A stretch of DNA of 39,075 nucleotides from Acidobacteriota bacterium (GTDB taxonomy: Bacteria > Acidobacteriota > Terriglobia > Acidiferrales > UBA7541). Position numbers and translations under genes: made by a program. Numbering within the stretch: position 1 is the first letter of the stretch; the number at the start of each line of letters is the position of its first letter. The notes under the pieces are model-generated. The model was given only the letters and a program-made list of their open reading frames with translations. It was not told the DNA's origin and did no database searches. Below, one piece after another: positions 13,667-29,187 of this stretch. The stretch is taken from contig JAKAOH010000011.1 in assembly GCA_021812285.1 (NCBI GenBank), forward strand, positions 1 through 39,075, written 5' to 3'.

Positions 13667-13713
13667 ATGGTCGGGGCGAGTGGATTTGAACCACCGACCT
13701 CCTGGTCCCGAAC
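13667..13713 (-). repeat. Island attachment repeat (att): 47-bp copy of the tRNA-Pro 3' part
   Basis: ATGGTCGGGGCGAGTGGATTTGAACCACCGACCTCCTGGTCCCGAAC, identical to 29109-29155. Confidence 0.92.
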
Positions 13714-14039
13714 TAGAATGGCCAAAATGCTAAATGCTTTCTTTGGTGTCGCTTAGGACCCGAAAAGGCCTTCCAAACCTTCCTCATTTGTCCGTAGTTG
13801 TCCGCAAAATCGTGATCCGCTTTCTGGAACGTCACTTCGCCTAAAGTGCAGGCACCCGAGCCTAGTCGGCCCGTTGATTCGCCACCTCCAGGTTATGGGT
13901 TAAATGGGCCAAAATCTGTAAGCTATGGCCCGTCCTGCCCTTACAAAAAACTATAGGCACACAACAACGCCCCTTCTGACGGATTTTGTTCCCTTAGCGT
14001 TCCCAAGCTTTGACCATTGGTTTCACAATCACGCAATTG

Positions 14040-14107
14040 GCACGACTTCCCTATGATAGCGTCGTGCAGTTCCACGTATAATGTGGTCCGCACTTTAGGA
14101 TTTAGGA
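14040..14107 (+). promoter_or_regulatory. Candidate promoter/operator region of the 453-aa/NMNAT/Dcd operon
   Basis: IR GCACGAC (14040-14046) / GTCGTGC (14061-14067); TATAAT 14077-14082 inside CCAC-gtataat-GTGG; tandem heptamer TTTAGGATTTAGGA 14094-14107. Confidence 0.45.
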
Positions 14108-14172: not shown

Positions 14173-15534
14173 ATGCCTAGTCACGATTCCAACCCCACTT
14201 CTGGTCACTCCTACCTTGCCGCGCTTGATCCTTGGCGTCGTTCAACAGTCCGGGAAGTCGAACGCCTCTTGAAAATATCTTCCCTCACTGCAAGACGGAT
14301 CATAATCTCTGATAACCAAGCCCTGAATAACCGGGGTTTGCATCGTTTGCTTCACAGGCCGGATGTGCTTGAGTTTCTTCGTCGTCCAGACGGCGACGGA
14401 GCGCCCCTATTGGCCATCGCCTTGCGTGAGGGCACACTTCATTTTGTAGAGGTCGCTCAGCGTCTTGTCCTCCGTAGAGACCGTCCGGCAATCTTTCCAT
14501 GGATGAGCGTGGCGCAACAGGCTCAGCTCGACACCGCTTACGGTCATGGCCGCTCCTCGACGGTCGGGCCGTTGTTTGACATTGCGGGGCAAACATTCCG
14601 CGATCACATCGAGCGCCTTGAGACGCTGCGAACGTCGACCCCTGCAACCACTGTACGCTGGAGCGGCCTGGAAACTGGTTACGTCGGTGCCACTACCACA
14701 GCTCTACGGCGTTTTCGCCACACACTTGAGCGAGACTCTATTTCTGCATTACCCCGTGACAAAGTGCTTGCGCTCTGTGACAGTCTACTCGAACAGGTTG
14801 AGCAAGGGTCCGACGTCAATCGCTCCGATCTCTATCGCACAATTTCTCTCTCGGGCTTAGACAAAGCTACACAGTTTGCAATTCGCCTGAAATGCTTGGA
14901 CGAACCTTATCACGAGAACTTTGCGGCGGCAACACGCAGTCATAGCATCACCGGTACCGAATACAGAGAGGCAGAGGTAGCGCGTTTACTAGAGACTATT
15001 TCAGCAAGACTGCTCCAGTTGCGCCCGGTTGACGTTTTCGGAATTGACGAATTTCCCCTACTGCTGGATGAGGTGCCATTTTCTCGTATCTCCTCTATTC
15101 GGGGCTCTCCAGCATTCCTGGACCTTCTCGACAAATTGGCAGTCCCACAAGAGGATCACAAAAGAGTGCGCGTGATATTAGACCTTCTGAATTTCATATC
15201 AGCCGAGTTGGCCAAAGAGCCCAAAGGTCTCAGAAAACTCATCAGTCTTCGACTGCATGTCTTCTCACCGCCGCGAGAATTAATGGATGAATTACGCGCC
15301 GCTGGGCTCTCTCTTAGCGACCTTGTTGCTGCCGCATCTACGACCGCTGGCTTTGTGGTGGGAGAGGCTGTTGGCCAACTCGTGGGAGTTTTCGGGGTGG
15401 GTGGCGTGCTCGGAACTGGAGCCACAATAGTAGTCGAGCAGATCGCCCGAAGGGCATATGAAAAACCCAAGAAGCAGCAGGAGTTTCAACAGGTTCTACA
15501 ATTGATCCTTGCGGCAACTCACACGGACACATGA
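14173..15534 (+). CDS. Uncharacterised 453-aa protein with N-terminal HTH-like segment and C-terminal Gly-rich hydrophobic segment
   Basis: STVREVERLLKISSLTARRIIIS near the N-terminus; TTAGFVVGEAVGQLVGVFGVGGVLGTGATIVVEQI near the C-terminus. No family recognised. Confidence 0.75.
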   Translation: MPSHDSNPTSGHSYLAALDPWRRSTVREVERLLKISSLTARRIIISDNQALNNRGLHRLLHRPDVLEFLRRPDGDGAPLLAIALREGTLHFVEVAQRLVLRRDRPAIFPWMSVAQQAQLDTAYGHGRSSTVGPLFDIAGQTFRDHIERLETLRTSTPATTVRWSGLETGYVGATTTALRRFRHTLERDSISALPRDKVLALCDSLLEQVEQGSDVNRSDLYRTISLSGLDKATQFAIRLKCLDEPYHENFAAATRSHSITGTEYREAEVARLLETISARLLQLRPVDVFGIDEFPLLLDEVPFSRISSIRGSPAFLDLLDKLAVPQEDHKRVRVILDLLNFISAELAKEPKGLRKLISLRLHVFSPPRELMDELRAAGLSLSDLVAAASTTAGFVVGEAVGQLVGVFGVGGVLGTGATIVVEQIARRAYEKPKKQQEFQQVLQLILAATHTDT

Positions 15535-15571
15535 ATGTCACATTTAATACTGGAGGTAAGACCTACGCGCA

Positions 15572-16111
15572 ATGGTTGATCATCTGGGAATGGTTCATGG
15601 CCGGTTTCAGCCAGTCCACAATGAACATCTTCTGTACATTCTGAGAGGCCTCAGCCGCTGCTCTAGGCTAGTGATTGGGATTACAAACCCTGATGCCTCC
15701 GAATACAAAGCCAGCTCGCTGAGTCCACACCGACACAACGAGGAGGCAAATCCCTACACCTATTTTCAGCGAATGGAAATGATTCGAGAGTGCTTAGTCG
15801 ATGAGCATATCGATCTCGCTCGCATATCACTCATACCGTTTCATCTGTTTGCCCCCGACAAATGGCACTACTATTTGCCTCCGCCCGAAGCGGTGGTTCA
15901 ATACGTCAGGGCCTTCTCCTCCTGGGAAGATGAGAAGATTGCGTTATTTCAGAAATACGGGTATCGCGTGGAGGTTCTTGACAGACGGATGACAAAAACG
16001 GTTGAAGGCACACAGGTGCGCACGATCATGCGCGAGGGAGGCAACTGGAGACAACTTGTACCTCCTGGAACCGCGCGCGTCATCGATAAGGTGAACACTG
16101 GGGACCTATGA
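15572..16111 (+). CDS. NMNAT-like nucleotidyltransferase (cytidylyltransferase fold, NadM/NadR-like)
   Basis: GRFQPVHNEHLLYILRGLSRCSRLVIGITNP (HxGH-type motif as HNEH) and C-terminal VEGTQVRTIMREGGNWRQLVP (GTxVR motif). Confidence 0.8.
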   Translation: MVDHLGMVHGRFQPVHNEHLLYILRGLSRCSRLVIGITNPDASEYKASSLSPHRHNEEANPYTYFQRMEMIRECLVDEHIDLARISLIPFHLFAPDKWHYYLPPPEAVVQYVRAFSSWEDEKIALFQKYGYRVEVLDRRMTKTVEGTQVRTIMREGGNWRQLVPPGTARVIDKVNTGDL

Positions 16112-16698
16112 GGAAGACCATGGACAACTCCGGTGGCGCTATTCTTTCGAACCAACAAATCATCCAGTCGGTGCAGAACAAGGAAATAATTATCGAGCCG
16201 TTCGACATACGCCTGGTTAGGGGCGCAAGCATATGCCTGCGCCTCGGTTATGAAAGCATGCGAATGGAGTGTACCGGGACGGTGGACGTCCGTCTTGAAG
16301 CTTCCTATCCCCTATACAAGAAGATTGAAGTTGACGCCAGGACAGGGCTAGAAATCCCCGCAAAGAGACTGGTACTAGCTAGCACATACGAGAAAATTGC
16401 ATTACCCAGGGATGTAGTGGGTTGGCTGTCAAACCTTTCGGGTCTCGCACGGCTTGGACTTCAAGTTGTATTATCGCACCTTGTCTCTCCTGGGTATGGA
16501 GAGCACGGCTCGACATCGCTCACACTTGAGCTATTCAACACACTCGACGTCCCAATCAAACTGTATTCTGAAATGCGTATCTGTCATCTGACGTTCTTAC
16601 ATTTACAAGAGCCAGCGACCACCAGTTATGATTCTCAGGTGGGAACCTACGCTCGCCAGGCTGGACCACGCGGCTCACGCTTTTACACTGATTTCTAA
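16108..16698 (+). CDS. dCTP deaminase-like protein (dUTPase/Dcd fold)
   Basis: VVGWLSNLSGLARLGLQVVLSHLVSPGYGEHGSTSLTLELFNTLDVPIKLYSEMRICHLTF aligns by eye with E. coli Dcd RSSLARLGL...[32 protein letters not shown], including the catalytic Glu. ATGA overlap with the preceding gene. Confidence 0.8.
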   Translation: MRKTMDNSGGAILSNQQIIQSVQNKEIIIEPFDIRLVRGASICLRLGYESMRMECTGTVDVRLEASYPLYKKIEVDARTGLEIPAKRLVLASTYEKIALPRDVVGWLSNLSGLARLGLQVVLSHLVSPGYGEHGSTSLTLELFNTLDVPIKLYSEMRICHLTFLHLQEPATTSYDSQVGTYARQAGPRGSRFYTDF

Positions 16699-16725: not shown

Positions 16726-18030
16726 CTATTCGTTGATTCCGGCGACGAGCTTGGCAACAACGTCAGGGATGCCCTTGCGAGAATCAGCCGCAACCTTGTC
16801 GGCCAGCGTGAGCGAGTATTTTCGGACATCTGCCACCGTCACATTATGCCAAACGGGCAAAATCACCTTCCTGCCATCGATTTCCTTGGCGGTAAGACCG
16901 TCAAGCTCCTTTTGCGGCCACTCCTTTCGGAAGAAAGCCGGGCTCAGCACGACGATTCCAAACCGAGAGTTGCCAAGACCACGGTCAATAGCGCGCCGCA
17001 AACTGTCGCCCACCCTTAGGGTGAACTCGTCGTACCACACCTTCAGACCCGCTTGGCGCAATGCCTCGACCAGTGGACGAACGAAGTCGTCTTTGTCCTC
17101 GCTTGCGTGGCAGATGAATGCGTCCCATTCTTGAGGGCCAACGCGATCCTCTCGCAGCGATTCTCCAACGTTCACGGAAAGCGGCTCGGCTTCGAAGTTC
17201 GCCGATTGTGCCAGCAGGGCGTCGCCCGCAGAAGCGTACTGCTGGCCGGAATCCAGGACCAGCATTTTCTGGGCCTCCAGAATCTGTGCGGACTGGATCA
17301 GCGATGACGTAGTTACGCCGAGGTAGTCTGCGTCCCAATCGTCTGCGATCCACACTTTCGTCCGCTTGTCTCCCTGCCGGAAACCCATCCAATACACCTT
17401 GCCCGAAATGAAACGGTCTATTCGCTTCTCCGGAGTGTCGGGTCGAACGCGTACATCAAGCGACAATTCCTTACGGGTTGCGGGGAGATTGGCCATTGGA
17501 ACGAAGTCCAATTCCCCTCCGTCCACGGCACGCCTGACAGTGCTAATGATGTACACTTCCAGGCGAAATGGGTTTTTCTCAAGGCCGATATCGTAATCAG
17601 CAAAAGTGATTGTCATGGTGCATCTGGCCATCGTGCCTGCTCTCCGGAGATTCCACACGGACACGGGCAGGTAGGTCGCCGCTCGATTGGCGAAGGGACG
17701 CATTGGCCAATCGATCTCGACGCGAATTGGAACACCTGCCGTACAGAAGAAACTCACGGGGTCTGCATTCGCCATCCTCCCCGCCCAAGACCGAGCATAC
17801 GCGGCTGCTGACGGTACGTATCCTGGTGTGCTCGGCAAGTCGGCCAGAAAATCCTCGGAAAGAACAATCGTTGAATTCTTCGATCCTGAACCTCGCTCTG
17901 GCCCGATGCGGATGAAGAATGAGCGAATGTCGTTAAACCGACGGGCCTCCCTCATTTCGAGGCTTCCAGTCCTGTGCAGAATCTCATTGAAAAGCTGCAA
18001 ACCCGCGTCAAGTTTCGTATCGCTTGGCAC
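16726..18030 (-). CDS. TIR-domain protein with uncharacterised N-terminal domain
   Basis: C-terminal WDAFICHASEDKDDFVRPLVEALRQAGLKVWYDEFTLRVGDSLRRAIDRGLGNSRFGIVVLSPAFFRKEWPQKELDGL is a bacterial TIR pattern. Confidence 0.88.
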   Translation of the reverse strand: MPSDTKLDAGLQLFNEILHRTGSLEMREARRFNDIRSFFIRIGPERGSGSKNSTIVLSEDFLADLPSTPGYVPSAAAYARSWAGRMANADPVSFFCTAGVPIRVEIDWPMRPFANRAATYLPVSVWNLRRAGTMARCTMTITFADYDIGLEKNPFRLEVYIISTVRRAVDGGELDFVPMANLPATRKELSLDVRVRPDTPEKRIDRFISGKVYWMGFRQGDKRTKVWIADDWDADYLGVTTSSLIQSAQILEAQKMLVLDSGQQYASAGDALLAQSANFEAEPLSVNVGESLREDRVGPQEWDAFICHASEDKDDFVRPLVEALRQAGLKVWYDEFTLRVGDSLRRAIDRGLGNSRFGIVVLSPAFFRKEWPQKELDGLTAKEIDGRKVILPVWHNVTVADVRKYSLTLADKVAADSRKGIPDVVAKLVAGINE

Positions 18031-18375
18031 GTGGCCCCCTTCTGTGGCTCGCCCGCAAACGCGCGGGATTCCATTAAAGGCAGTCCTGAGATTCTACCGC
18101 TCAGCGTGGCCCACCAGCGAGGCGGCCTTTCGCAAAGCCAGCGGGTCTCTTAGCAGAGCACAGCCGCTGAACGAAACCGATACGCCCCGTCGGCAGAATG
18201 GTAGAATCGCGGCGAGATTTCCGAACCACACGGGGAGTGGACGGGATGGCGGGACACAAGAACAGACCGAAGGACGCGAAGGGCAAAATCGCAGAACGTG
18301 ATCGACTGCCCAGTGCGGCCCGACGTAGCTGTGCACACACAATTCCTGAGGAACTCTCTCAATCGCGCAAAAAAC

Positions 18376-20736
18376 ATGCCTTCACTGACCGAAGCTGACA
18401 CTTGCCGAAAGTACGTCCTCCCGAAGCTCTACGCTTCCGGCTGGTCCGACGACCACATCAACGAACAGCGGACATTCACGGATGGCCGCATCGTTGTGGC
18501 TGGCAACCGCACGATCCGCCGGAAACAAAAGCGCGCTGATTACCTGCTGCGCTACCGGCCTGATTTCGCAATTGCAATCGTTGAAGCGAAAGCCGATTAC
18601 AAGAAAGCCGCTGACGGCCTGGGCCAGGCAATGGAGTATGCACAAATCCTTGGGCTGAAATTCGCCTATTCCACCAACGGCCACGGGATCGTCGAACATG
18701 ATTTCACAACCGGTCTCGAAAGCACTCTCGAAACGTTTCCCTCGCCGGATGAACTCTGGCAGCGGCTCAAGCACGGAGAGGACATCCCAAGCCAGATCGT
18801 CGAGCGCCTTCTCACTCCTTCCTATCGCCTCCCCGGCAAACCACAGCGCTACTACCAGGAGATCGCTATCAATACCGCAGTCCGCGCTATTCTCCAGGGG
18901 CAGAAGCGGGTTCTTCTGACGCTGGCCACGGGTACGGGCAAAACCGTCGTTGCATTTCACATTTGCTTCAAACTGTGGAACACGAAATGGAATCGTGAGG
19001 GTGCGCCCGGACGCCGCCCACGCATGCTCTACCTCGCTGATCGCAATATCCTTGTGGACGATCCGAAGGACAAAATCTTTACGCCTTTCGGCGACGCCAG
19101 GCACAAGATTGAGCGCGAAGCCATAATGAGCCGAGAAATGTACTTCTCCACGTATCAAGCCATCGCTAAGGACGAACGCCGTCCCGGCCTTTATCGCGAA
19201 TACCCGAAGGATTTCTTCGATCTCATCGTAGTGGACGAGTGTCACAGGGGAAGCGCCAAAGACGATTCCAATTGGCGGGAAATCCTCGAATATTTTGAAC
19301 CTGCCTTCCAGCTCGGCATGACCGCGACCCCCAAGCGCGAAGAGAACCGCGACACGTATCTATACTTTGGCAATCCGCTTTACACCTACAGTTTGCGTCA
19401 GGGGATCGAGGACGGTTTCCTTGCTCCATATCGGGTCCACCGTATTGTCACCAGCGCTGATTCGATGGGCTGGAGACCAAATCGAGGTCAAGTGGATCGC
19501 CTTGGACGCGAGATTCCCGACGAGGAATACACCACGAAAGATTTCGAGCGGAAGGTTGCTCTTCTCCCTCGCACCGAAACCATTGCCCGCAATCTCACCG
19601 ACTTCCTGAAAACAAACGGGAGGCTCGACAAAACAATCGTGTTTTGCGTTGACCAAGAACACGCAGAAGACATGCGTTTTGCCCTCAACAATCTCAACGC
19701 GGATTTGACCCAGCAGTACCCGGACTACGTTGTGCGCGTTACGGCAGATGAAGGCAGGACCGGGCGCGGCCATTTGGACCGCTTCATGGAACTTGAAACC
19801 ACGACTCCAACGATTGTGACAACATCGCAGCTCTTGACGACCGGAGTGGACGTTCAAACCTGCAAGAACATCATCATCGCCCGCACCATCAATTCGATGA
19901 CCGAATTCAAGCAGATCATCGGACGCGGAACCCGCGTTAAGGATGATTACGGCAAGCTCTATTTCAACATCCTCGATTACACCGGAAGCGCAACGCGCCT
20001 CTTCGCCGACCCTGATTTTGATGGTGAACCCGCATTCGCGACCGTCGAGGAAATGAACGCGGAGGGGAACAACGTCAAGGCTGAGATCGAGAAATCGGAG
20101 GAAGTGATCACCGACCCCTTGCCCCCGCAAATCCTCGAACCCGGAGGCAGGAAGAGCGGCGAGCCGCGCAAATACTACGTGGACCAGGGCTCCATCGAAA
20201 TCGTTGCCCACTTCGTTTCCGAGCTGGACGCCGACGGCAGGCAGCTTCGAGTTGTTCGCTTCACCGATTACACAGGGGAAAAAGTGCGAAGCATGTGTCC
20301 CTCCGCAGCGGAACTCCGGTCAAAATGGTCCAACGCCGATCAGCGAGCGGAAATCATTCAGGCTTTGGAGGAACGCGGCATCACTCTGGAGGAGTTGATC
20401 CAGGCGTCGAACCAGCCGGACGCTGATCCATTCGACCTCCTCTGTCAAGTTGCCTATAGTGCGCCGGTGAGAACGCGGAGAGAGAGAGCCGAGCGCCTTC
20501 GGAAGGACCAAAGGGCCTTTTTCGAGAAATATTCCGAAAAAGCGCGGCAGGTTTTACAAGACATCCTGGATAAATATGTAGACTATGGCACGGCACAGTT
20601 TGCGATCCCGGAAATCCTAAAAGTGCCGCCGATTTCCGAACGTGGGACAGTGATGGATATTTCGCAAATGTTTGGCGGCGCGGAACGATTGCGTACGGCC
20701 GTCAATGAATTGCAAGCACTTCTATATGCGTCTTGA
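18376..20736 (+). CDS. hsdR: Type I restriction-modification endonuclease subunit R (EcoEI-like)
   Basis: N-terminal nuclease-like ADYLLRYRPDFAIAIVEAKADYKKAADGLGQAMEYA; Walker A LATGTGKTVVA; VVDECHRG; helicase IGRGTR. ORF open from 18298; ATG at 18376 preferred. Confidence 0.88.
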   Translation: MPSLTEADTCRKYVLPKLYASGWSDDHINEQRTFTDGRIVVAGNRTIRRKQKRADYLLRYRPDFAIAIVEAKADYKKAADGLGQAMEYAQILGLKFAYSTNGHGIVEHDFTTGLESTLETFPSPDELWQRLKHGEDIPSQIVERLLTPSYRLPGKPQRYYQEIAINTAVRAILQGQKRVLLTLATGTGKTVVAFHICFKLWNTKWNREGAPGRRPRMLYLADRNILVDDPKDKIFTPFGDARHKIEREAIMSREMYFSTYQAIAKDERRPGLYREYPKDFFDLIVVDECHRGSAKDDSNWREILEYFEPAFQLGMTATPKREENRDTYLYFGNPLYTYSLRQGIEDGFLAPYRVHRIVTSADSMGWRPNRGQVDRLGREIPDEEYTTKDFERKVALLPRTETIARNLTDFLKTNGRLDKTIVFCVDQEHAEDMRFALNNLNADLTQQYPDYVVRVTADEGRTGRGHLDRFMELETTTPTIVTTSQLLTTGVDVQTCKNIIIARTINSMTEFKQIIGRGTRVKDDYGKLYFNILDYTGSATRLFADPDFDGEPAFATVEEMNAEGNNVKAEIEKSEEVITDPLPPQILEPGGRKSGEPRKYYVDQGSIEIVAHFVSELDADGRQLRVVRFTDYTGEKVRSMCPSAAELRSKWSNADQRAEIIQALEERGITLEELIQASNQPDADPFDLLCQVAYSAPVRTRRERAERLRKDQRAFFEKYSEKARQVLQDILDKYVDYGTAQFAIPEILKVPPISERGTVMDISQMFGGAERLRTAVNELQALLYAS

Positions 20737-20753
20737 AGACCGGAGCTGCCGCA

Positions 20754-21335
20754 ATGCCAGCCAATTTTAGTCTCGACGAGCCATACTTCCGAATCCGCCT
20801 GGTGGGGACCGAGAAATCTTTTCCTTCCCTTTTGGACATCTCAAGCTTCCTCTACGATCTGAATCTTCTCTATGAAATATCTCGCTTGGCTACTGACCCC
20901 AAGTATAGAGATTTTGCATTCTCAAGATATGTTTTCTATCGTAGTGGCCGCCCAATGGACAGCGGTGACAGACTCTACGTTCAGTCGCTTTCACATGACT
21001 CACCTATCGCAATCGTCCTAGTTGCCACCATTGTGGCTACCGGAATTGCGGCTATTTGGGGAATCGTTCAGATTGGCGACAAATTGGTCAATGCTCCCCT
21101 AAATCGTCGCAAGCTCAAGGCCGAGGTTGAAAAGCTAGAGCGCGAGAATCGAAATGCGGCCTTATCACACGAGTTGCTGCCTCAGGGCGAGGAAGATTTC
21201 AGGAGAACGCTTCGGATTCGCGAAGCGGAGCATTTTTACGATAACGTTGCAGGACGGCTTGAGCGGTCTTCAGTTCAGATAAAAGAGCTGGAAATTGAAG
21301 TCGTCAAGCCCAATCCAAAAAAGGACACCGAATGA
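20754..21335 (+). CDS. Uncharacterised protein with one predicted TM helix and C-terminal coiled coil, within the R-M operon
   Basis: ATG 20754 with GGAG 8 nt upstream (ORF frame open from TTG 20733). SPIAIVLVATIVATGIAAIWGIVQI hydrophobic helix, then KLKAEVEKLEREN coiled coil. Confidence 0.75.
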   Translation: MPANFSLDEPYFRIRLVGTEKSFPSLLDISSFLYDLNLLYEISRLATDPKYRDFAFSRYVFYRSGRPMDSGDRLYVQSLSHDSPIAIVLVATIVATGIAAIWGIVQIGDKLVNAPLNRRKLKAEVEKLERENRNAALSHELLPQGEEDFRRTLRIREAEHFYDNVAGRLERSSVQIKELEIEVVKPNPKKDTE

Positions 21336-21354
21336 AGGTCGCGTAGAAAACGCA

Positions 21355-22923
21355 ATGGCCAGACAGAAAACAGCAAAGAAGGAACTTCATCAATCCACCG
21401 CACAGCAGCTCGCCTCGATTGTCAAATCGTGCCGCGACATTATGCGCAAGGATAAGGGCCTCAGCGGCGATCTCGACCGTTTGCCGATGCTCACATGGAT
21501 CATGTTCCTCAAGTTCCTGGACGACATGGAAAGTGTGCGAGCTGAGGAGGCCAAACTTGCCGGCAAGCGTTTCCGTCCTGCCGTCGAAACGCCCTACCGC
21601 TGGCGCGATTGGGCAGCGAACCCGCAGGGATTTACTGGACCGGAGCTACTGGCCTTCATCAATCAAGACGAAGCCGTCCGCCCGGACGGCAAACGTGGAG
21701 ACGGCCTTTTTGCCTATTTGCGCTCTCTTCGCAGTGCAAACGGTGACCGCCGCGACGTGATCGCCAAGGTTTTTCAGGGCACGTTCAACCGAATGACCAA
21801 CGGCTACCTTCTCCGGGACGTGGTCAACAAGGTTAACGAAATCCACTTCACGTCGAAGGATGAAATTCACACGCTTGGTGCACTCTACGAATCCATGCTC
21901 CGGGAGATGCGTGATGCCGCAGGCGATTCGGGCGAATTTTACACCCCCCGTCCCGTTGTTAAGTTCATCGTTTCCGCCATCAATCCTCGCCTTGGCGAGA
22001 CCGTTCTCGACCCAGCCGCAGGCACGGGCGGCTTCCTCGTCGAGGCGTTTACACATCTACAAAAGCAATGCAAAAAGACGGAAGACTTCAATCGCCTTCA
22101 AAGGGGCACTCTCTTCGGAATCGAGCCGAAGCCGCTTCCCTACCTGTTGTGCCAGATGAATCTCCTGCTTCACGGCCTTGAGTCGCCCGCAATTGACCCA
22201 GAAAATGCTTTGCGCTTTCCGCTGCGCGAGGTCGGTGATAAGGATCGAGTTGACATCATAATGACGAACCCGCCATTCGGAGGCGAAGAGGAGCGCGGAA
22301 TTCTTTCCAATTTTCCCGAGGACAAAAAAACGGCGGAAACTGCCCTGCTTTTCCTCCAACTCATCATGCGTAAGCTTCGCCGCCCTGTCGGAGGTACAAA
22401 TCCTGGGCGCTGCGGAATGGTCGTTCCCAACGGGACACTGTTCGGCGACGGCGTTTGTGCTCGGATAAAGGAAGACCTCCTCAAGGAGTTCAATCTCCAC
22501 ACAATCGTCCGGCTGCCGAACGGTGTGTTTGCTCCGTATACGAGTATCCCGACAAATCTGCTGTTTTTTGATCGTTCCGGGCCAACGGAGGAAATCTGGT
22601 TTTATGAGCAGCCTCTGCCAGAGGGACGTAAGACCTACACGAAAACGCAGCCCATGCGCTTTGAGGAATTTACAACTTGTCTGACTTGGTGGACCACACG
22701 CGAGGAGAATGACCGCGCATGGAAAGTCAAGGCTTCTGACATTCTTAAATACAACAGTGAGGGCAATCTTGTTTCAGTAAACCTCGACATCAAGAATCCT
22801 AACGCTAAAGAAAATCTAGAGCAGATGCCACCTGAGAACATTGTCGATGACATCCTTGCTAAGGAAAAGAAGATTCGAGACATCGTATTGGAAATCAAGA
22901 GCGCGTTGACGGTGGCTGAGTGA
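21355..22923 (+). CDS. hsdM: Type I R-M methyltransferase subunit (N6-adenine)
   Basis: ESMLREMRDAAGDSGEFYTPRPVVKFIV, LDPAAGTGGFLVEAF, IIMTNPPFGGEEE. Confidence 0.93.
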   Translation: MARQKTAKKELHQSTAQQLASIVKSCRDIMRKDKGLSGDLDRLPMLTWIMFLKFLDDMESVRAEEAKLAGKRFRPAVETPYRWRDWAANPQGFTGPELLAFINQDEAVRPDGKRGDGLFAYLRSLRSANGDRRDVIAKVFQGTFNRMTNGYLLRDVVNKVNEIHFTSKDEIHTLGALYESMLREMRDAAGDSGEFYTPRPVVKFIVSAINPRLGETVLDPAAGTGGFLVEAFTHLQKQCKKTEDFNRLQRGTLFGIEPKPLPYLLCQMNLLLHGLESPAIDPENALRFPLREVGDKDRVDIIMTNPPFGGEEERGILSNFPEDKKTAETALLFLQLIMRKLRRPVGGTNPGRCGMVVPNGTLFGDGVCARIKEDLLKEFNLHTIVRLPNGVFAPYTSIPTNLLFFDRSGPTEEIWFYEQPLPEGRKTYTKTQPMRFEEFTTCLTWWTTREENDRAWKVKASDILKYNSEGNLVSVNLDIKNPNAKENLEQMPPENIVDDILAKEKKIRDIVLEIKSALTVAE

Positions 22924-24119
22924 ACCCTGATTGGAAGCTGACGAGGCTAGGAGATGTGCTTCGGAGCGTGTCCCGCCCCGTGTCCGTCAGCCCAGAAAAC
23001 AGGTATCCTCTGGTGGGTGCGCACTGGTACGCGAAGGGCCTCTATGTCAAGGAAGAAAAGGGCGGCAGTGAAATACAGGCCAGAACGCTCTTCCAAGTTA
23101 GGGAAGGCGATTTCGTGTATAACCGCCTATTCGCGTGGAAAGGTTCGTTCGCGGTTGCTACGAAAGAAGTGGACAGCTGCTTCGTTTCGAGTGAGTTCCC
23201 CTGTTTTACCCCTCTGGATACCATTGACCCACACTTCCTCTGGTTCTACTTCTCTCGCTCTAGCGTCTGGAACGAAGCTCTAGGCCTCAGCAGCGGCAGC
23301 ACACCTACAAGTCGGAACAGGTTGAAGGAGGAACAATTCCTGAATATGGAAGTCCCTTTACCTCCTCTCGACGAGCAACACCACATTGTTGCCCGCATTG
23401 AGGAGTTGGCCTGGAAACTAGAAACGACCAGGAGCCTCCAACTGGAGTCTTCCGCGAAAAGCAATCTCTTAATGGACGCAATCATCAGCCAAGCATTTGA
23501 ACAATTCACCCAAAGATTTGGCGTTGTGCCTATCATTAATTTTGCGGATGTCAAGGGCGGGAAGAGACTTCCTCGGGGCGAGTCGTTGTCTGATGACCCC
23601 ACCCCATTTCCTTATATCCGCGTTGCAGACATGCAAAATCATTCTGTTGTTCTGTCTGGAATCAAGTACGTACCTTCGCATATCCATCCTGCGATTCAAC
23701 GGTATACGATAAGTTGCGAAGATGTGTACATCACAATTGCCGGTACAATTGGATATCCCGGACTTGTCCCAAGACAACTGGATGGTGCTAATCTGACAGA
23801 AAATGCTGCAAAACTGGTGCTTCGTGACAAAGCACAGGTTGACAGGCGGTTTGTTGTTTACATGCTGAGGTCTCACCAAGTCCAGGGAGAGTTCAGCGGA
23901 AAGAGGACCGTGGCCGCTCAACCCAAGTTAGCACTTCACAGGATCGCCACGACCGCTTTGCCTCTACCATTGATCGTTGAGCAGAAGCGCATTGCTGGCT
24001 ATCTCGACGACCTCCAAGAGAAAATCGGGACGCTGAAGGTACGGCAATCCCAGATGACATCGGAACTCGACGCCCTCATGCCCTCTGTCCTGGCCAAAGC
24101 CTTCCGGGGCGAGCTCTAG
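22920..24119 (+). CDS. hsdS: Type I R-M specificity subunit
   Basis: Two TRD-type halves with conserved regions (PLPPLDEQHHIVARIEEL; LPLPLIVEQKRIAGYLDDLQEKI). Start GTG overlaps hsdM stop (GTGA). Confidence 0.9.
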   Translation: MNPDWKLTRLGDVLRSVSRPVSVSPENRYPLVGAHWYAKGLYVKEEKGGSEIQARTLFQVREGDFVYNRLFAWKGSFAVATKEVDSCFVSSEFPCFTPLDTIDPHFLWFYFSRSSVWNEALGLSSGSTPTSRNRLKEEQFLNMEVPLPPLDEQHHIVARIEELAWKLETTRSLQLESSAKSNLLMDAIISQAFEQFTQRFGVVPIINFADVKGGKRLPRGESLSDDPTPFPYIRVADMQNHSVVLSGIKYVPSHIHPAIQRYTISCEDVYITIAGTIGYPGLVPRQLDGANLTENAAKLVLRDKAQVDRRFVVYMLRSHQVQGEFSGKRTVAAQPKLALHRIATTALPLPLIVEQKRIAGYLDDLQEKIGTLKVRQSQMTSELDALMPSVLAKAFRGEL

Positions 24120-24203: not shown

Positions 24204-25208
24204 TCAGCGATTCGCCCACCACTTGGGAGGGTGACTTAGAAAGGAGTGAATACTTGTGTATTCCCAGTGCAGCGCCTCGGGAAACATCTCGCGCCACCTA
24301 TCGCGCGTCGCAGGCGATGGGTCGATAACGCAAAGTCTGATCTTCCGGCGGGAAATTCCCAGCGTGAATAGCTGTTGAGCCTTTACGTCGGTTGAAGGCA
24401 GGGAATATCCCCACACAACCAACGTGCCAGCCTTTTCAAGTCTTTCGAGGCAATCGCTCCAGAGTTTGCGCCATGGGCCTCGTTCTATGCGCTTGTCCCA
24501 GAATGGGAGAAAAATCGGAAACGTGCTGCCCGTTCCGCTGTGCCCCCTGTATCCAGGGGAGTCGTCAAAATCTTTCCAATCGCTAGGAAGCACCTGAAAT
24601 GTCTCATTCTTTTTCGGTAGATGCCAGTTCGAACTCCCGTGCAATTTCAAAACCGTGGGAAGCTTGTAATCCTTCGGCCTTTCCGCGAGGCCATAGACCC
24701 ACCTGCCGAAGGCCGAATGGCCCGCAAGCGCGATGGGGAGCATTGCTCTCTCGACAACCAAGTCGTAATTAAAGGAAATCACCGTGTCAGTGGCCCCCAG
24801 CGCGCTCAGGAGAGTGTTGTGATTCGTGCAAAACTCCTTGCCGTGTGCTGCGCGAAGAAGAGCTTCGATGCATCGCGCAAAATTCGCCACTATTTCGTCA
24901 TCTAAGGCACCCCAGCTTCGGGTCGCCTTTAGTTTCTCTGCGAGGTAAGCCCTGAGGTGGAGAGTGTAGAAAGACCTCTCCATCGAATGCCTATATTCAA
25001 GCGGCAAGGCCTCAATCTGCCTTTGCACGAAATGAACAGCCCTAGCATCCACTGGACGCGGTTCAAGACGATTTAAGAGATCAAAAAAATCCGAGTCTAG
25101 TGGTGAAGGCTGTTCTCTTTCATGCGCGTAGCTCACGCTCCGGCTGGCCCCAGCCCCCAGGACTAGGGCGTATGGGTTCCCGTCGTGAGCATTTTTCTTG
25201 CGCGTCAT
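24204..25208 (-). CDS. SIR2-like domain protein
   Basis: ALVLGAGASRSVSY, TVISFNYDLVVERA, LKLHGSSNW, LVVWGYSLPSTDVKAQQLF motifs. Confidence 0.85.
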   Translation of the reverse strand: MTRKKNAHDGNPYALVLGAGASRSVSYAHEREQPSPLDSDFFDLLNRLEPRPVDARAVHFVQRQIEALPLEYRHSMERSFYTLHLRAYLAEKLKATRSWGALDDEIVANFARCIEALLRAAHGKEFCTNHNTLLSALGATDTVISFNYDLVVERAMLPIALAGHSAFGRWVYGLAERPKDYKLPTVLKLHGSSNWHLPKKNETFQVLPSDWKDFDDSPGYRGHSGTGSTFPIFLPFWDKRIERGPWRKLWSDCLERLEKAGTLVVWGYSLPSTDVKAQQLFTLGISRRKIRLCVIDPSPATRDRWREMFPEALHWEYTSIHSFLSHPPKWWANR

Positions 25209-25806: not shown

Positions 25807-27063
25807 TCAAGTTCCCGCTGGCCCCTTCGACAGCATTTCGTGTTCATCCAGCATTCTTTCTTTTTCTGTCTTCTGACGTATGTGATTTCGCAGAAACGCC
25901 GATGTGATGGCGTAAGGCATAAAGTCCTCGCTGTGCTGGGCCGTCCAGCACTCCTCGATTGCCAAGCGGAGGTCGCGCCATCCTCGGCAGAAAGCGCCTC
26001 TGGCTCCGTCGTCCTTTTTAGGAAGACGGAGAATTTGCTCCCGAAAGAATTCGGTTGGCGCTATCTGAACTTCTTTGGGCCTGCGTCGCCAAATGCGGGA
26101 AATCACCTCGAAAACCCGGTAAGGCAACTGCACGAAATCAGAGCTTCTCTTCATTTTGGAGGTGCGGTCGCATGACTCGCGCCAACCCATATCGGGCAGG
26201 CCAGCCATTCCACGGGCCAACGGGAGCGGCTCGATTGCGTATCTGACTTCGCAAAGGAAATCGAGCAGTTGAGAGCAAAACCAATACGTCTCCTCGTTCT
26301 TGACCCTCTGATTTAGCTCTTTGGATTCCGCTTCCGCTCGGGCTAGTTTTTCGTCCAGGTCACGCAGGCGCTCCTTTTTCTCGTTGGCCTGTGCCTGGAT
26401 TATTTCTCTATCCTGTCCGCTCGCCTCTCCCAGAGCCCTTTCGGCTTCGGTGCAAGATTGCGCAAAGCCAAAGCGGCGATTCCGCATTTCTTGGATTTGA
26501 TGTGGCAGCTTCGCAGCCCTGATGCGGTCTGCTCGAAGCGTTTTCCTGTCTACCTCTTGCGGTGACCCGCGAAGGAAAACTTGAGCCAGATCGCGGCGGT
26601 TTCCTCCCTGGATGGGTTCGAACACCCTCCGCAAGTCTTCAATCGTGCCGCCTTTCCGGTTCCGAAACCCCAGCAAGTTGAAACCGATCTCCGGCCAGCA
26701 TTCCTCGAAGAAGGAAAGCCAGTGGTTGAGGCCGCTCAGCAGAAAACTGTCTCCGACCGTGGGCCGACCCCTCTTCGGCTTTGCGGGTTCGGACGGACCG
26801 GGCAGCCAAGTCGTCAAAGGAACAAAAGACAATCCCCCGCCCTGTTGAGTGTCTGAAGAGCGGTTGCCGCTGTGTTCCTGCGCAGCACGGCCCCTTTTTC
26901 GTGTACCCGAGGGACGCTTTTTTGAAAACCTGTCAAGGCCTTCTTTCGGCTTTTGGCGTGCCTTTTTGCGTTTTGGCATTTTCCTGGTGTTCCCTTGGGA
27001 AGCCCGCCTGAATTTTACGGCGGTTCCCGGTAAATCACCCGGATTTTTCCGGCGGTTGCTCAT
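25807..27063 (-). CDS. Uncharacterised 418-aa protein, very basic N-terminus plus coiled coil
   Basis: ORF runs to 27519, but the upstream part overlaps the oppositely oriented zinc-ribbon gene. Internal ATG at 27063 (MSNRRKNPGDL). Coiled coil REIIQAQANEKKERLRDLDEKLARAEAESKELNQRVKNEE. Confidence 0.65.
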   Translation of the reverse strand: MSNRRKNPGDLPGTAVKFRRASQGNTRKMPKRKKARQKPKEGLDRFSKKRPSGTRKRGRAAQEHSGNRSSDTQQGGGLSFVPLTTWLPGPSEPAKPKRGRPTVGDSFLLSGLNHWLSFFEECWPEIGFNLLGFRNRKGGTIEDLRRVFEPIQGGNRRDLAQVFLRGSPQEVDRKTLRADRIRAAKLPHQIQEMRNRRFGFAQSCTEAERALGEASGQDREIIQAQANEKKERLRDLDEKLARAEAESKELNQRVKNEETYWFCSQLLDFLCEVRYAIEPLPLARGMAGLPDMGWRESCDRTSKMKRSSDFVQLPYRVFEVISRIWRRRPKEVQIAPTEFFREQILRLPKKDDGARGAFCRGWRDLRLAIEECWTAQHSEDFMPYAITSAFLRNHIRQKTEKERMLDEHEMLSKGPAGT

Positions 27064-27183
27064 CCCGAAACCACCTTCTCTGGGCCGCCAAACCCGGATT
27101 GCACTAAGTGACCGCTTATCCTGTACTTGCCCGATATGCGGCCATTCGCAACTGAGGCTGCTGTAGGGGCAAGGGAGAAGGAT

Positions 27184-27546
27184 ATGCCAACGATAACCGA
27201 TCACAAGTTCCCCTGTCCGGTTTGCACGCGCTCGATTGAGGTGCGGGTGACGAAGAAAGGCAAACCGTACGTTACGTGCGATCCGTGCGGGGTCCAGATG
27301 TTCGTTCGCGGGCCTGCCGGAATTGCGGAGTTCGAGCGGCTGATCGAGCAGGGCAACCGGGACGGGCTGCCAGAGCGGCTGGCCGAGATGGAACGGCGCT
27401 ACCGGCTGACCTGCCCGGAATGCGGCAACAAATTCTGGGCCGAACCGGGGCTGATCAAGACGAGCGGCTTCGACGGAAGCCTGAAAGGATTTCGATGCCC
27501 GCAAAAGGGTTGCGGGCAAATCGTGCCATGGGGAGGCAAACGATGA
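27184..27546 (+). CDS. Zinc-ribbon protein
   Basis: CPVC...CDPC and CPEC...CPQKGC cysteine pairs; GGGAGAAGG upstream of ATG 27184. Confidence 0.75.
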   Translation: MPTITDHKFPCPVCTRSIEVRVTKKGKPYVTCDPCGVQMFVRGPAGIAEFERLIEQGNRDGLPERLAEMERRYRLTCPECGNKFWAEPGLIKTSGFDGSLKGFRCPQKGCGQIVPWGGKR

Positions 27547-27671: not shown

Positions 27672-27869
27672 ACGGAGGGCCTCGAATCGAGGCATTGCAG
27701 GCACTTGCTTCTGGAAAAGACAACTCGCGAGCCTTCGCCCGAGCAAAAGGCGGAACGGGCCACGGGGAATGGAGCGCCACAAGCGGCCCTTCTGCCCGCT
27801 GCTCTTCCAGACGCGCGCCGTGATACCATTCTGCCCGCGACACCAAAGAGAGCGAAGAGAGGCAAATGC

Positions 27870-29084
27870 ATGTCTCGTCGCTCTCAGGTGGGCAGCATCG
27901 AGAAAAGTGGCAAATGGTACGTAGTGCGGTTTTGGAAGGACGTTCCGGGGCAGGAGCAGCGGATACACGCCAGCGAGCGTATCTGTCCGGTCTCCGGTCC
28001 CGGCAGTCTGAACAGAACCGAACGTAGAAGACGGGCTCTTCAGATTGTGATGTCGAGTGGCGTGAACGATCCGCAGAAGTTCGCGGAAGCGACGGTCGGC
28101 ACCACATTCAGAGAGCAGTCGGAGCGATTCATGCAGCAAGCCGCAGAGCGGAAGAGGCGACCGATTAAGCCAAAAACGTTGCAGGAGTGGCGATACTGCG
28201 TGGACAAGTGGTTAAACCCGCATCTTGGCGAGATGCCCCTTGCGGATGTTCATAACGGCGCTCTCAAGGCGCTGGTAGCGAAGATGGACGCCGCTGGGCT
28301 GTCTCCCAAGAGCATTAACAACCATATCGGGCTGGCAAAACAGGTCGTGGGATCGGCTAAGGACGAGAACGGAGAGCCGCTGTTTCCCCGCAAGTGGGAC
28401 GCCGAGTTTATGGACTTGCCCACCGTAAGGAATCAGCGGAAGCCGAAATTTACGAGCGAGCAGGTGAGTTCACTACTGCGAAACGTCGTCGGCCAGAAAC
28501 GTGTGCTGTACGCGCTCCTGGCAGGAACGGGGTTACGCATTGGCGAGGCGCTCGGGCTTGAAATCGACAAGCACGTCTCGTCAGACTGCCGTGTCCTGCA
28601 TGTTCGCCAGTCCGTCTGGAACCGCAAACCCCAGGAACCGAAAACGGCGAATGCCATTCGCGAAGTGGACATCTGTCCCGCCCTGGCCACCATGCTCAAG
28701 GAATTCATCGGTGACCGTAAGAGCGGGTTCCTGTTTACGAGCGAAACCGGCCGTCCGCTGTCCGATACGAATGTGCTGCACCGCTCGCTTCACCCTGCCC
28801 TCAAAAAGCTGGGAATCGAGCAGTGCGGTTTCCACGCGTTTCGGCGGTTCCGGGCGACGTTCCTCAGCGGATGTCGGGTACCGGAGTCGTTGATACGATT
28901 CTGGCTCGGCCACGCCAGCAAGAACGTCACAGACGGGTATGTCCGGTGGGAACAAGAACCAGCGTATCGGCTATCGGTGGCTGATAGTGTTGGTCTCGGG
29001 TTCGAGCTTCCGCAGGCAGAGAGCCCAATTGTCCGTAATGTCCGTAGAAAATCGAGCAAAGCGGAAACTGTAGTGGCTGCATAA
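27870..29084 (+). CDS. int: Tyrosine recombinase / island integrase
   Basis: GTGLRIGEALGLE (Arg I), HAFRRFRATFL (HxxR), LGHASKNVTDGYV (Tyr). Adjacent to the tRNA-Pro att site. ATG 27870 after AGAGAGG. Confidence 0.92.
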   Translation: MSRRSQVGSIEKSGKWYVVRFWKDVPGQEQRIHASERICPVSGPGSLNRTERRRRALQIVMSSGVNDPQKFAEATVGTTFREQSERFMQQAAERKRRPIKPKTLQEWRYCVDKWLNPHLGEMPLADVHNGALKALVAKMDAAGLSPKSINNHIGLAKQVVGSAKDENGEPLFPRKWDAEFMDLPTVRNQRKPKFTSEQVSSLLRNVVGQKRVLYALLAGTGLRIGEALGLEIDKHVSSDCRVLHVRQSVWNRKPQEPKTANAIREVDICPALATMLKEFIGDRKSGFLFTSETGRPLSDTNVLHRSLHPALKKLGIEQCGFHAFRRFRATFLSGCRVPESLIRFWLGHASKNVTDGYVRWEQEPAYRLSVADSVGLGFELPQAESPIVRNVRRKSSKAETVVAA

Positions 29085-29108: not shown

Positions 29109-29155
29109 ATGGTCGGGGCGAGTGGATTTGAACCACCGACCTCCTGGTCCCGAAC
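29109..29155 (-). repeat. Island attachment repeat within tRNA-Pro
   Basis: 47 bp identical to 13667-13713. Confidence 0.92.
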
Positions 29156-29187
29156 CAGGCGCTCTAGCCAGGCTGAGCCACGCCCCG
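29110..29187 (-). tRNA. tRNA-Pro(CGG), CCA encoded
   Basis: Minus strand CGGGGCGTGGCTCAGCCTGGCTAGAGCGCCTGGTTCGGGACCAGGAGGTCGGTGGTTCAAATCCACTCGCCCCGACCA; 7-bp acceptor stem, loop TTCGGGA (anticodon CGG), GGTTCAAATCC T-arm. Confidence 0.96.

Follow-up and report, generated by a model that had tools for sequence, protein, structure and literature searches.

Archaeal-type NMN adenylyltransferases (NMNATs; PDB 1ej2 and 1f9a, profiles TIGR01527 and NF002243) and dCTP deaminases of the Dcd family (TIGR02274; PDB 1xs1 and 2qxx) are the described enzymes closest to the products of two of the three genes considered here, which lie in a 39,075-nucleotide stretch of DNA from an Acidobacteriota bacterium (the window, analysed as a whole). 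A nucleotide deaminase in a defence setting is also the theme of the anti-phage dCTP deaminases, DcdV and its relatives, which have a zinc cytidine-deaminase fold and not the trimeric dUTPase-like fold of Dcd; none of our three genes has a PADLOC match. The NMNAT-like family to which the second gene belongs recurs in a cassette of HARE-HTH, TM-DUF5919, AIRS-like and NMNAT genes (with Dam in some cases), but the partners in the trio are different and the window NMNAT falls outside the clade of that cassette. The earlier note had not recognized the combination as a described system, and in agreement with this, it turned up in no search and in none of the searchable literature, an incomplete collection in which no paper joined Dcd, NMNAT and anti-phage defence, or HARE-HTH and NMNAT.

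An integrated island with the trio as cargo at its attL end

The trio is carried, next to attL, by a genuinely mobile defence island integrated at a tRNA-Pro gene. The left end, attL (13667-13716), is a 50-bp copy of the tRNA-Pro 3' end, and its direct-repeat partner attR (29109-29158) forms the 3' terminus of the intact tRNA-Pro (CGG) itself (29110-29187, minus strand, located with ARAGORN), the two copies being 98% identical over 50 bp at a spacing of 15442. Adjoining the tRNA is the gene of a tyrosine integrase (27705-29084, plus strand, start codon uncertain; Pfam Phage_integrase, E 4e-17). In all three congeners compared, the tRNA-Pro is present once, its site is unoccupied by an island, the DNA on its right flank is related to that of the window (72-75% identical over roughly 1 kb), and the stretch examined beside it contained no integrase relative; one of the three, L158, has to the left of its tRNA-Pro a 1119-aa protein resembling the left neighbour in the window. 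Island G+C is lower than that of the right flank. The segment 13.67-29.16 kb is therefore a 15.4-kb integrated island, and it has what is expected of a tRNA-integrated genomic island: att repeats, one of them ending a tRNA gene, an integrase, and an empty site in relatives. The island ends, the integrase and the att repeats were absent from the earlier note. Partial extra att copies, as if from past integrations, were also seen beside the tRNA-Pro of one congener (L159:5239-5839).

Among the cargo, the trio comes first, starting about 0.46 kb in from attL. It is followed, outside the operon, by a TIR-domain gene (16726-18030, minus strand; Pfam TIR_2, and PADLOC PDC-S66 at E 2e-63 over its C-terminal part) and by a type I restriction-modification locus on the plus strand, comprising the restriction enzyme HsdR (18298-20736; PADLOC REase_I, E 1e-225), the methyltransferase HsdM (21295-22923; PADLOC MTase_I, E 8e-190) and the specificity subunit HsdS (22920-24119; Pfam Methylase_S). 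Beyond these lies a weak SIR2-like gene (24204-25208, minus strand; Pfam SIR2_2 at E 0.003, below cutoff, and PADLOC Aga_SIR2 at E 1e-4). This company of TIR, restriction-modification and weak SIR2-like genes bears out the defence-island setting. Between HsdR and HsdM, and overlapping each on one side, is a 200-aa protein without a family match (20733-21335, plus strand) that contains a hydrophobic segment; a 570-aa ORF near the integrase (25807-27519, minus strand) has no assigned function.

The three genes and their products

The trio consists of three intact plus-strand ORFs, coding for the 453-aa protein (14173-15534, from the ORF listing), a 179-aa NMNAT-like protein (gene 2; 15572-16111, supported by family profiles and PDB alignments) and a 196-aa Dcd-family protein (gene 3; 16108-16698, supported by family profiles), and all three have a higher G+C at the first than at the second codon position, as fits coding sequence. 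The 37-nt gap and the subsequent 4-nt ATGA overlap are present as the earlier note had described them. This spacing suggests coupled expression, and we infer from it that the trio is probably a single transcription unit. The expression signals proposed in that note did not withstand analysis: 3 promoter matches were found in the region vs. 2.3 expected in shuffled sequence (the best, at 14053-14082, is within chance level), and no terminator hairpin was found after gene 3, where the RNA fold z-score of +1.74 is weaker than in shuffles. The ends of gene 3 and of the convergent TIR gene are 27 nt apart.

The 453-aa protein is, by sequence comparison, an orphan in all collections searched. It had no family match above noise in Pfam, NCBIfam, PADLOC or PHROGs, no relatives among plasmids, phages and IMG/VR viral contigs or in 396 genomes of the phylum, and none in a pattern scan of 84,980 species, a type of scan that detects close relatives only; among the 89 family genomes scanned, the gene was not found in the other 88. 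Within the phylum, short and scattered matches at around E 1e-3 were attributed to chance. The AF2 model of the single sequence had a pLDDT of 37 and was discarded. A glycine-rich hydrophobic stretch near the C-terminus (residues about 391-424, with a hydropathy maximum of 2.01 at residues 403-421) may be compatible with membrane contact, and this single short stretch is what hints at the membrane-acting effector that had been proposed for this protein.

Both NMNAT-type motifs claimed for gene 2, GRFQPVHNEHL and GTxVR (here GTQVR), are indeed present. Similar in length to archaeal-type NMNATs, gene 2 aligns over its full length with the archaeal NMNAT structures (1ej2, 1f9a) and keeps the nucleotidyltransferase motifs GRxQPxHxxH and GTxxR. 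It matches NF002243 at E 5e-19, yet under the cutoff of that profile; in bits, it scores 68.6 and 53.4 against curated NCBIfam NMNAT cutoffs of 127 and 181.2, respectively. Where archaeal NMNATs have GSAQ, gene 2 has ITNPD and an insertion, a replacement found in its family as ITN(P)D. Judged by these motifs and profiles, gene 2 is an NMNAT-like nucleotidyltransferase of the adenylyltransferase/cytidyltransferase family, with NMN as one possible substrate.

The Dcd assignment of gene 3 held at the level of the family, with 127.8 bits against TIGR02274 (cutoff 92.8) and a match to Pfam DCD, but not at that of the canonical motif, in which [KR]S[ST] has become LSG. The catalytic residues S111, R115 and E138 (S111, R115 and E141 in its own numbering) are kept, as are the equivalents of Y171, Y179 and Q182. 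In contrast to ordinary Dcds, four pocket positions are substituted, with L, G, S and T in place of K/R110, S/T112, D/E128 and K178, respectively (L110, G112, S127 and T180 in its own numbering), and four residues are inserted before the catalytic strand. These four positions are conserved in 30/30 other distinct Dcds, a set drawn mostly from one bacterial class such that a wider one could hold similar variants; in PDB alignments, the Dcds of E. coli and M. tuberculosis carry the usual pocket residues. Several of the substituted positions presumably contact the triphosphate or the sugar. The host has a second Dcd elsewhere in its genome (C216), 27% identical to gene 3 and of a kind common to its relatives, and for this reason we regard the island Dcd as an accessory copy. 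With four conserved pocket positions lost, gene 3 probably does not carry out ordinary dCTP deamination; most simply, its residues suggest that it has changed substrate or serves in binding.

The NMNAT-like family and its gene neighbourhoods

The NMNAT-like family is rare and is used in several conserved gene neighbourhoods. Relatives were found in 5 of 297 genomes in the sample of the window's phylum (three of them weak and one the window itself) and, with the centre genome included in each case, in 4/251 genomes of Chloroflexota, 3/296 of Actinomycetota and 3/398 of Pseudomonadota; 16 plasmids carried relatives and phage records none. Among the 80 best-matching loci in the genome scan, about half belonged to this family, the rest being mostly archaeal NMNATs. 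Gene contexts follow the tree, in which the window NMNAT sits on a long branch, with its closest relative (L025, 50% identity) as a weakly supported sister (83/59).

Most bacterial relatives are found either beside a CDP-alcohol phosphatidyltransferase or between SelD-like and apgM-like genes (plus acyl-CoA dehydrogenase and CaiB-like genes in some). The latter arrangement, seen in L025, L027, L028, L044, L046, L141, L142 and others, is apparently an uncharacterised metabolic operon. The NMNATs of the HARE-HTH cassette group into a single clade of 9 rows (94/89). This cassette (L037, L040, L041, L052, L054, L055; related L057, L060, L105, L106) comprises a HARE-HTH protein, replaced at some loci by a shorter relative, a TM protein whose DUF5919 matches are weak and below the Pfam cutoff, often an AIRS/PurM-like protein, and the NMNAT-like enzyme, joined in Acidobacteria by a Dam-type methylase. 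It is conserved and conflict-like, and the parts tested had no PADLOC match. In a further context, the NMNAT-like gene is found with a PEP/pyruvate-dikinase-like gene and DHH, radical SAM or, in Treponema, viperin-family genes. On the Treponema saccharophilum plasmid pTS2 (L010:5983-10346), NMNAT-like, PEP/pyruvate-dikinase-like, cysteine desulfurase and viperin-family genes form a run on a single strand, and Rhodococcus plasmids (L011, L013) have a 483-552-aa protein without a Pfam match, together with NMNAT-like, PEP/pyruvate-dikinase-like and radical SAM or DHH phosphoesterase genes. In two Pseudomonadota genomes (L166:757-2028 and L167:1471-2739), the NMNAT-like domain is fused behind what by eye is a HAD-like domain and adjoins an Hsp70-like protein.

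The key prediction of the earlier note, that the 453-aa protein would recur beside NMNAT and Dcd genes, was not borne out, as no relative of this protein was detected anywhere searched; for the same reason, co-conservation is a limited test here. No Dcd neighbour was seen at about 50 loci of the NMNAT-like family or at about 45 archaeal NMNAT loci, and no 453-aa neighbour at any NMNAT locus recovered by partial sampling. NMNAT-Dcd pairs were likewise missing from the samples of the window's phylum, Chloroflexota, Actinomycetota and Pseudomonadota and, with either protein as query, from viral contigs, and the trio was in no other genome examined. The lack of a conserved neighbourhood, which the earlier note would have held against a system, was found in part, and this leaves room for a rare one. 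The genes and the island are real; the trio is a candidate, not an established, anti-virus system.

Possible roles of the trio

Our tentative preference, held at somewhat short of even odds, is for the trio as a predicted conflict module, directed at phage or at mobile elements of another kind and carried as island cargo. In its favour are the TIR, type I restriction-modification and SIR2-like neighbours, the lack of the 453-aa gene in the 88 further family genomes, an accessory Dcd with an altered pocket, and the use of the NMNAT family elsewhere in the HARE-HTH cassette and in the plasmid cluster with a viperin-family gene. Against it are the lack of the trio, or of the NMNAT-Dcd pair, in other genomes examined, the lack of a PADLOC match, and the weak grouping (83/59) of the window NMNAT with a metabolic-looking SelD-like/apgM-like context. 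That context is also what lends substance to a rather unlikely alternative, in which the trio would be a small nucleotide/cofactor operon for metabolism or salvage, unrelated to defence: most bacterial NMNAT relatives, the closest one (L025) included, sit in SelD-like/apgM-like or CDP-alcohol phosphatidyltransferase contexts, but none of the partner genes of these contexts lies beside the window NMNAT, the Dcd pocket is altered, an orphan 453-aa protein would be atypical of a pathway and defence genes make up much of the remaining island.

It is unlikely that the trio represents unrelated accessory genes that came together at the island end without a joint function. The missing co-conservation at about 50 NMNAT-family loci, the long branch of the NMNAT and the uniqueness of the 453-aa protein would all fit such a chance assembly, but the three intact ORFs, and the 4-nt overlap and 37-nt gap that suggest coupled expression, speak against it. 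We consider it improbable that the trio acts on NAD+ and dNTP pools, the original proposal, with NMNAT predicted to make or restore NAD+ (e.g., against the island's own TIR and SIR2-like proteins) and Dcd to deplete dCTP. The NMNAT catalytic motifs are kept and TIR and SIR2-like genes are on the same island, but NMNAT scores lie under the NCBIfam cutoffs, ITN(P)D and an insertion replace the archaeal GSAQ, and Dcd has lost conserved pocket positions; since the substrate-binding features of both enzymes differ from the canonical ones, pool control, though possible, is less likely.

Returning to a conflict module, we postulate that the NMNAT-like enzyme would join a nucleotide to a phosphorylated acceptor via its conserved HxxH and GTxxR motifs, that the divergent Dcd would bind or deaminate not free dCTP but another cytosine nucleotide, which might be what the NMNAT-like enzyme makes, and that the 453-aa protein might be a sensor or an effector. 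A more specific version, an immune module in which the NMNAT-like enzyme makes a nucleotide conjugate, the re-purposed Dcd senses or edits this conjugate and the orphan, possibly a membrane-active effector, is switched as a result, would be a long shot. Should the trio be a real defence system, it would add an immune system based on nucleotide chemistry and would show how re-tuning of a housekeeping dNTP enzyme can come about. Failing that, the comparison still shows that a little-studied NMNAT-like family is used again and again in several conserved gene clusters, of which one or more are conflict-like.
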